From contig JAITPW010000018.1 in the NCBI GenBank assembly GCA_031289255.1, forward strand, positions 1 through 42,354: a stretch of 42,354 bases of DNA, in the 5' to 3' direction. This document shows positions 40,169 to 42,354 of this stretch, in pieces. How positions within the stretch are numbered: position 1 is the first letter of the stretch; each line of letters starts with the position of its first letter. The DNA comes from Bacilli bacterium (lineage in GTDB: Bacteria; Bacillota_I; Bacilli_A; JAJDGJ01). Both the position numbers and the translations under genes were made by a program. Under the pieces are notes generated by a model. It was not told the DNA's origin, made no database searches, and saw only the letters and a list, made by a program, of their open reading frames with translations.

Positions 40169-40362
40169 TTATTTATGAAGTTTTAATCCAAAAACCTGAT
40201 ACATTAGTAACTAATCTGTTTGTGAAAAATAATATATTCTTAAAGCATAATTATAAGCTCTCAATCATATTAAGTGATATCTATAATTACTTCTAATAGA
40301 CAATTCAAAAACTTATATTACATCATTGTTAAAATATCGATTCCCTTTCTAAAAAGCTAAAT

Positions 40363-40485
40363 CTAAATTAAACTAGCTCCACCATCACCTACAAAAATTG
40401 TCACAGTTATCCATTCAACCTTATCAGAAGCTAAATAAACAACTCCATGAGATACTTTGTATAAAATAACGATAAAACTCAAAAT
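40363..40485 (-). pseudogene. C-terminal remnant of a short-chain dehydrogenase/reductase gene
   Basis: Minus-strand open segment KVSHGVVYLASDKVEWITVTIFVGDGGASLI* matches the SDR C-terminal signature (YLASD...W.TG..F.VDGG); no start codon or Rossmann N-terminus. Confidence 0.75.
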
Positions 40486-40507
40486 CTATTATTAATTACT
40501 ATTTAAT

Positions 40508-40528
40508 AAAAAAAATCCTTACGTGGAT
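40508..40528 (-). terminator. tracrRNA intrinsic terminator
   Basis: ATCC-ACGTAA-GGAT hairpin followed by T8 on -. Confidence 0.8.
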
Positions 40529-40633
40529 CATCCGTATCCTGAAGTGGATAAAACTTGCGACACACTCTTAATAAAAGAGGGTCTTAATACAAAGTGCTGC
40601 AAACCTTGTATAATGACAACACCCTTGCGGGTT
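40508..40633 (-). ncRNA. tracrRNA (type II CRISPR)
   Basis: Anti-repeat (40586-40619) pairs with the crRNA repeat with one C-C mismatch plus G-U wobbles; followed by hairpins CTCTT/AAGAG, ATCC/GGAT, ATCC/GGAT and T8; consensus promoter upstream. Confidence 0.92.
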
Positions 40634-40639
40634 AACTTT

Positions 40640-40669
40640 ATTATACATTATTTTAATAATTTCTGTCAA
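40640..40669 (-). promoter_or_regulatory. Consensus sigma-A promoter of the tracrRNA
   Basis: Minus strand TTGACA (40664-40669)-N18-TATAAT (40640-40645); the -35 and part of the spacer lie in the 3' end of the csn2-like CDS. Confidence 0.88.
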
Positions 40670-41537
40670 TAATTTTTTTCATTTTAAGCTCTATTAATTG
40701 GTTCTTATTTATGATCTTTTCTACTTCTTCATCATAATAAAATCGTTTACAATCATCAATACTAATATCCTCAAATTCAGCAACCATTTTCAACTTAATA
40801 AAATCATCTCTGAAAGAATTAATCTTATTATCATTTAAGAATAAAATATTGATATTATTATTATTAGTAAATATTTTTGAACCAGTAAAAAATATTAAAC
40901 AATTTTCAGTCACCCCTAAATCAATCAATTGATTCAAAACACTTTGAGAGTTCCTATCATCTAATCCAAGAAATAATTCATCAATAATTAAAACAGTTTT
41001 TACTTTATTTCTTTTTATTTCATTTAGTATTAGATTAAAATATTTCGTTCTTTTTACACTAAAAGATGTTATAGATAGTTCATTATCATTAATTGTAAAA
41101 AAAGAATTCTTATTTATTAATTTATCAAAATCAAAGCTAACTTTAAGTTGTATTCCAGCAATCGTCTCAATATTACTAATGATACAATCATTAATAATTA
41201 CATTTAATTCACTTGTTAAATTATTTAATTTGATTAAGGTATCTTCTTCTAATGTATCTAAAGCAAAATCTAAAGAATTTTTAATTAAAGATTTACTATT
41301 TAAATTTTTTTCATTTTCCATAGTATCTAAATCACCAATATAATAAATAATAAAATCATCTTTATTTATAATTTCACCATTATAAATAAAACTTTTTTTC
41401 ATTATACCACTAAATCCATTATTAATAATATTAGAAAATAAAGTTTTACCAGAATTATTATAAGAAAAAAAATAATTTATTTTTGATGTTTCAAAACTTT
41501 GTTCACCAAATTCATTCGTATTAAAAATAATATTCAT
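40653..41537 (-). CDS. Csn2-like P-loop ATPase-fold protein of a type II CRISPR locus
   Basis: NYFFSYNNSGKTLFSNII (Walker A-like), KTVLIIDELFLGLDD (Walker B-like), helical insertion like Csn2; next to a CRISPR array and tracrRNA. Start placed at 41537 (AAGGAG RBS, MNIIFN...); the 41594 start in the ORF track falls inside the terminal CRISPR repeat. Confidence 0.7.
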   Translation of the reverse strand: MNIIFNTNEFGEQSFETSKINYFFSYNNSGKTLFSNIINNGFSGIMKKSFIYNGEIINKDDFIIYYIGDLDTMENEKNLNSKSLIKNSLDFALDTLEEDTLIKLNNLTSELNVIINDCIISNIETIAGIQLKVSFDFDKLINKNSFFTINDNELSITSFSVKRTKYFNLILNEIKRNKVKTVLIIDELFLGLDDRNSQSVLNQLIDLGVTENCLIFFTGSKIFTNNNNINILFLNDNKINSFRDDFIKLKMVAEFEDISIDDCKRFYYDEEVEKIINKNQLIELKMKKIIDRNY

Positions 41538-41585
41538 TCCATCTCTCTCCTTATTAATTCCTATATTATTATTATAATCAAATAT

Positions 41586-42354
41586 TGATATCATTATACA
41601 AAATTTGCAGCAGTCCGTATCGCTTTATGATATATCTATTTGGAAATATGCGATTGTCATTATACAAAATTTGCAGCAGTCCGTATCTCGGAGTTTTAAT
41701 TAGAATATTAAAATCAAGATTGTCATTATACAAAATTTGCAGCAGTCCGTATCTCATCCTACTAATACTCATAATAATAATACGATTGTCATTATACAAA
41801 ATTTGCAGCAGTCCGTATCATAACAGGGTCATATAACTCATTATTATCTGATTGTCATTATACAAAATTTGCAGCAGTCCGTATCCTAACGAGCTAGATT
41901 GGATGGAGGAGATTGGATTGTCATTATACAAAATTTGCAGCAGTCCGTATCCTAGATAATATTTTATTATCCTTTAGATTAGATTGTCATTATACAAAAT
42001 TTGCAGCAGTCCGTATCTGACCACCTATGTTACTTATGATTATAGTGGATTGTCATTATACAAAATTTGCAGCAGTCCGTATCGTTGGGTTCTCTATTAT
42101 TTTATAAATTTCTGATTGTCATTATACAAAATTTGCAGCAGTCCGTATCTAAATCTGCACTTTGATAAAAGAACTTTCCGATTGTCATTATACAAAATTT
42201 GCAGCAGTCCGTATCGATATGATTATGGCTTTGTCAGACGAAAAAGATTGTCATTATACAAAATTTGCAGCAGTCCGTATCCGTTGTTAAGCAATCTGAA
42301 AAATGGAGGTTGATTGTCATTATACAAAATTTGCAGCAGTCCGTATCGTGCCAC
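41586..42354 (-). CRISPR. Type II CRISPR array, 12 repeats / 11 complete spacers, truncated by the window edge
   Basis: 36-bp repeat (crRNA sense) GATACGGACTGCTGCAAATTTTGTATAATGACAATC starting (on +) at 41586 (degenerate), 41652, 41718, 41784, 41850, 41916, 41982, 42048, 42114, 42180, 42246, 42312; all spacers 30 nt; strict 66-bp period; strand from tracrRNA complementarity and degenerate terminal repeat. Confidence 0.98.

Follow-up and report, generated by a model that had tools for sequence, protein, structure and literature searches.

A tracrRNA gene beyond csn2 in a type II CRISPR-Cas locus of a Bacilli bacterium

The stretch of DNA analysed here (the window, 42,354 nt), which represents the whole contig C52 of a Bacilli genome and ends within a CRISPR array, contains on the minus strand, at 40508..40633, an element that is almost certainly the tracrRNA gene of a complete, csn2-containing type II CRISPR-Cas locus. 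This identification is based on the energy and uniqueness of its pairing with the CRISPR repeat, on a perfect promoter, and on intact cas9, cas1 and cas2 genes located by the same repeat. It is further supported by an identical gene order in the related loci L039/L059, by the first rank of the cognate repeat for each of the 12 tracrRNAs compared, and by the presence of an RNase III gene in the genome. The original prediction, which had read the element as a functional tracrRNA and the locus as type II, agrees with both the intact cas9 accompanied by the same repeat and the cognate pairing in relatives. The element is ordinary in kind, and the gene order around it is unusual.

The gene is about 126 nt long, with a G+C content of 39% versus 28% for the window. 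Its putative promoter, TTGACA-18-TATAAT, occupies 40640..40669 on the minus strand, in line with the promoter originally proposed; it matches the consensus at 12/12 positions, is the only such match reported by a promoter scan of positions 40300-42354, and places the predicted transcription start at about 40633. The gene had also been described as embedded in the csn2-like gene, which has to be corrected: the csn2 stop codon is at 40653 and the whole RNA is encoded downstream of it, so that the overlap is confined to the -35 hexamer and a part of the promoter spacer within the last codons of csn2, with the -10 hexamer lying downstream. Between the transcription start and the anti-repeat, the expected hairpin ACCC-GCAA-GGGT was located at 40621..40632 (minus strand). 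It is followed on the same strand by the anti-repeat GTTGTCATTATACAAGGTTTGCAGCACTTTGTATT (40586..40620), by a nexus-like hairpin GACCCTCTT-ttatt-AAGAGTGTGTC (40559..40583), identified by cofolding and by comparison with L059, and by two small 3' hairpins (TATCC/GGATA and ATCC/GGAT), likewise seen in the cofold, which together with a T8 run span 40508..40550. The nexus-like element of L059 has other bases and shares with the window the GTGTGTC of the 3' side. The later hairpins and the T8 terminator of the original prediction are in place, the T8 run at 40515..40508 being preceded by stems of 4-5 bp; as an intrinsic terminator this arrangement is weak, and a strict terminator scan returned none at the tracrRNA 3' end, where the stem is below its threshold. 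No tracrRNA family from Rfam matched here, and the identity of the gene therefore rests on pairing. The 3' tail of the RNA (40526-40540, minus strand) holds GATACGGA, which equals nt 1-8 of the repeat and could pair with the lower-stem anti-repeat within the same RNA. Such a tail is absent from the L059 tracrRNA, and its match to the repeat is possibly a coincidence.

Folding of the crRNA repeat with the element, suggested originally as a check, was performed using the repeat sequence GATACGGACTGCTGCAAATTTTGTATAATGACAATC. The anti-repeat (40620..40586) lies opposite 35 of the 36 repeat positions and forms 28 Watson-Crick and 6 G-U pairs, leaving a single C-C mismatch at repeat position 9. The energy of this duplex is -44.8 kcal/mol (cofold), versus -24.2 kcal/mol for the strongest repeat duplex formed elsewhere in the window (outside the array and the tracrRNA) and a background for 40-nt windows with a mean of -8.1 and a standard deviation of 3.2. 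The duplex consists of an 8-bp lower stem and a long upper stem, separated by the 1x1 C-C mismatch where a bulge would be usual. The pairing details proposed from the window were reproduced in this folding: pairing over about 34 nt was claimed and 34 of 35 positions are paired, G-U pairs result from each of the substitutions (AA to GG, CC to TT, C to T at the last position), and no mismatch other than the one predicted is left. Given its proximity to the array and its 85% match to the repeat over 33 nt, the element might also be an inverted repeat copy that has strayed or decayed and is devoid of function. We give this reading hardly any credence, since of its six deviations from the repeat five still pair as G-U, the perfect promoter is at the right distance, and nexus-like and T-run elements follow downstream; moreover, the element of L059, found at the same place after csn2, has a quite different sequence that fits the L059 repeat.

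The array itself (41586..42354, minus strand) comprises 12 repeats of 36 nt with 30-nt spacers and runs past the window end. The repeat nearest to csn2 (41586-41621) is degenerate; it therefore marks the leader-distal end of the array, and the crRNA strand is minus. In the genome, the repeat was found on two contigs only, C52 and C70. The latter (L003, 10,365 bp) opens with the same repeat (array part L003:8-241), and a 59-nt leader separates these first repeats from cas2. All three genes on C70 are intact and encoded on the minus strand: cas9 (1372 aa; L003 5653..1535; TIGR01865, 3e-134, with RuvC_III above the cut-off), cas1 (L003 1535..618; TIGR03639, 2e-70), and cas2 (L003 631..299; TIGR01573, 7e-23). 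The original concern that the genome might lack cas9 is ruled out by these genes beside the same repeats. We infer that C52 and C70 adjoin, the assembly breaking inside the array, which gives the locus order cas9-cas1-cas2-array-csn2-tracrRNA on one strand. The same order is present on a single contig in an Erysipelotrichaceae MAG (L039/L059), whose Cas9 (41-43% identical) is the closest among those from complete loci. No second anti-repeat was detected on C70, including the region upstream of cas9, which is the usual tracrRNA site in most of the relatives; location of the tracrRNA beyond csn2 is common to two species, that of the window and that of L059.

The csn2 gene (40653..41594, minus strand) most likely starts at the ATG at 41537, after AAGGAGAG. 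The call of a csn2-like gene proved right: the product matches the PADLOC model PDLC01597 (E = 1.6e-15), as do all 7 members of the Cas9 clade described below in which it was recognized, and its best PDB folds are 3zth and 6qxf, taken as support only because the AlphaFold model is of low confidence (pLDDT 57). The window Csn2 is a large one, with a Walker A-like motif (NNSGKT) and a Walker B-like one. In an alignment of the large Csn2 proteins of the window and its relatives, the Walker A-like motif GxxNSGK[TS] is kept (SYNNSGKT in the window), together with a Walker B-like ID[DE]. The Csn2 proteins studied so far are not known to possess an intact P-loop, and these P-loop-like motifs make ATP binding by large Csn2s a question worth asking.

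Several further observations concern the array and the cas9 contig. The hexamer TATAAT occurs in every repeat of the window (41586-42354), 7 nt ahead of the spacer in crRNA orientation, as though each repeat might initiate a transcript at its spacer, and invites comparison with Neisseria repeats; it is not kept in the repeats of relatives, and a repeat-internal promoter is not claimed. The search with the spacers gave no good phage match and no convincing protospacer, and the window's repeat is absent from the viral contigs searched. One candidate on a viral contig (L165:4266-4285), matching the third leader-side spacer at 25 of 30 positions with the last 20 nt exact, is about what a 20-base seed would yield by chance and was set aside as probably fortuitous. 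On the cas9 contig, a cobalamin riboswitch (L003:7389-7320; Rfam, 43.4 bits) lies upstream of a gene for a 397-aa secreted-looking protein (L003 7180..5987).

For the comparative analysis, Cas9 relatives were drawn from whole genomes and from named genomes, and for each relative the repeat was derived and the tracrRNA was then located by pairing. Single-protein scans of genome contigs and viral contigs yielded no relatives; an alignment query succeeded in finding them. Every repeat was folded against every tracrRNA in 12 loci, a comparison with tracrRNAs of related Cas9s that had been proposed at the outset. The cognate repeat ranks first for 12/12 tracrRNAs, the cognate duplexes having energies of -33 to -47 kcal/mol versus -8 to -31 kcal/mol for foreign repeats. 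Because its own repeat is the best partner of the tracrRNA in every locus, repeat and anti-repeat have co-evolved, and decayed anti-repeats in relatives, named originally as a possible objection, are ruled out. The 12-locus result provides strong support, far above that of the wobble argument made within the window, for the view that repeat:anti-repeat pairing has been kept by selection.

In the proposed mode of action, a housekeeping promoter located where csn2 ends would drive synthesis of the RNA of about 126 nt, and the pre-crRNA would be transcribed off the same strand, beginning at the leader beside cas2 and running towards csn2. The anti-repeat and each pre-crRNA repeat would form a duplex of about 35 bp, which RNase III would cut; Cas9 would then load the crRNA:tracrRNA pair, keeping the lower stem, the nexus and the 3' hairpins, and cut matching DNA, with new spacers presumably added by Cas1, Cas2 and Csn2. 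Regulatory Cas9-bound RNAs are also known in type II systems (scaRNA, PMC6199352; the natural single guide tracr-L, PMC11417352), and an RNA of this kind would repress genes instead of, or besides, serving as a tracrRNA. Folding back of the tail motif GATACGGA on the lower-stem anti-repeat would be compatible with such a role, which we nevertheless regard as very unlikely: the single strong promoter sets the transcription start immediately ahead of the anti-repeat, so that an upstream guide would not fit, the anti-repeat fits the repeat almost perfectly, and no other tracrRNA was found on C52 or C70. Nor was the upstream crRNA-repeat mimic with a guide to Pcas that distinguishes tracr-L detected, the best match to the lower-stem anti-repeat in the 400 nt upstream having an energy of -12.2 kcal/mol.

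One part of the tracrRNA gene, the hairpin ahead of the anti-repeat, gains its weight in the window from the relatives only, as the window's own hairpin of 4 bp with a GNRA loop has p = 0.59 alone. In most of the relatives, hairpins of differing sequence are located directly between the promoter and the anti-repeat: GATGCGTGTA-gaga-TATACGCATC in L059, AGAGCCGA-agtgtc-TCGGCTCT in L062, TGCCCTT-gtcgg-AAGGGCA in L065, and TCAAGG-gacg-CCTTGA in L066 (Dielma). They were tested using dinucleotide shuffles, a score cut-off of at least 15, and a comparison of the exact position with 14 shifted positions. At the exact position, 10 of the 12 clade loci (L059, L061-L066, L068, L045 and L143) reach the cut-off, versus 0-4 of 12 at the shifted ones, with anti-repeat 5' ends set by hand; the combined Fisher p value for the 12 loci is 4.7e-12, and all of these loci except L143 are those that had suggested the pattern. 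L143, retrieved only after that, possesses a perfect 10-bp hairpin (p 0.0005). At the same position, 10 of the 11 other clade loci have a hairpin stronger than that of the window, and L043 has none. The other 56 scanned loci, mostly II-C, gave no overall signal (p 0.067), though a Bacilli II-C lineage among the loci studied (L052, L056, L058, L158, L159) does carry the hairpin. No significant 5' hairpin was found in the Spy-type II-A loci tested except L149, where it is placed further upstream, and the Neisseria tracrRNAs in the control set are without it.

In each locus the palindrome is at or just past the transcription start, where it might serve as a protein-binding operator of the promoter rather than as an RNA hairpin. 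This interpretation appears unlikely, as the stems (6-10 bp among the loci scoring at least 15), the loops (3-11) and the sequence vary by locus and the position relative to the anti-repeat is fixed, whereas an operator would conserve sequence and spacing. An RNA hairpin at this position would be confined to the primary transcript, and protection against a 5' exonuclease would thus be its simplest role: it would most likely shield the 5' end of the primary transcript until pairing, RNase J being the 5' exonuclease expected in this group, and would be discarded with the end trimmed by RNase III. As a tentative proposal, which we hold to be possible rather than probable, the tracrRNAs of the csn2-bearing Cas9 clade and of the separate Bacilli II-C lineage would have an undescribed module: a hairpin of unconserved sequence and fixed position, maintained through compensatory changes and lost on RNase III cleavage. 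Its role would be to shield the primary transcript or to define where the repeat duplex ends, and the window's locus would add a rearranged gene order in which tracrRNA and csn2 come after the array. The clade-wide hairpin may be new, in that no published description of a tracrRNA 5' hairpin was found in a literature search that did not reach the main tracrRNA surveys. Section 13 of a mollicute survey (PMC6882279) sets out the tracrRNA plan as lower stem, bulge, upper stem, nexus and terminator, with no mention of a hairpin ahead of the anti-repeat.

In the Cas9 tree, which was built without the S. aureus and S. thermophilus CRISPR1 Cas9s, the Cas9 of the window's locus forms a clade with those of L059 and L060 (support 100/100), which is nested in a 15-member Bacilli clade (100/99). 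The latter joins the Neisseria-type II-C group, with strong branch support, before the other sampled II-C and Spy-type groups. Spy-type II-A Cas9s, including that of the genus mate G001 (L145), are far off in the tree. The best PDB match of the window's Cas9 is 9ar4 (243 bits). At least 7 members of the 15-member clade have csn2. By gene content the locus is II-A, and by the Cas9 tree it is outside the Spy-type II-A group sampled; since csn2 is present but Cas9 groups with the Neisseria-type II-C proteins, the locus was filed as type II with csn2. The different, Spy-type Cas9 of G001 (about 1487 aa; contig C10, L145) is accompanied by its own array and tracrRNA, and its presence in a genus mate indicates exchange of Cas9 systems among members of the genus.

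An undescribed Cas9 system from a Bacilli lineage with small genomes is now fully annotated, and the Cas9, repeat, tracrRNA and strand needed for testing its PAM and activity are known. A csn2-bearing clade beside the Neisseria-type Cas9s bears on the distinction between II-A and II-C, and the recurrent 5' hairpin, if confirmed, would represent an extra module in the standard tracrRNA plan.

In common with the type II-A systems of S. pyogenes and mollicutes (PMC6882279, PMC3936727), the window's tracrRNA has a promoter, an anti-repeat against a 36-nt repeat, G-U pairing at the lower-stem start, the AA junction, the nexus and the T-run; at the level of the locus, csn2 is present and the array is read in the direction of the cas genes. 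Unlike these II-A systems, the window has csn2 downstream of the array and the tracrRNA beyond csn2 as the last gene of the locus, and its duplex contains a 1x1 mismatch only and no bulge; its Cas9 is also far from the Spy type of S. pyogenes. The FrCas9 locus of Faecalibaculum rodentium (Erysipelotrichaceae; PMC8931148), compared at the level of the locus, similarly contains cas1, cas2, csn2 and cas9 with a tracrRNA, and its crRNA is read in the cas direction. Its 71-nt tracrRNA is located upstream of cas9 and runs opposite to the cas genes, an arrangement shared by most of the relatives found, whereas in the window and L059 the tracrRNA follows csn2. Finally, the Cas9 clade of the window joins the II-C group that contains Neisseria, but II-C systems are without csn2, and the window's locus has it.
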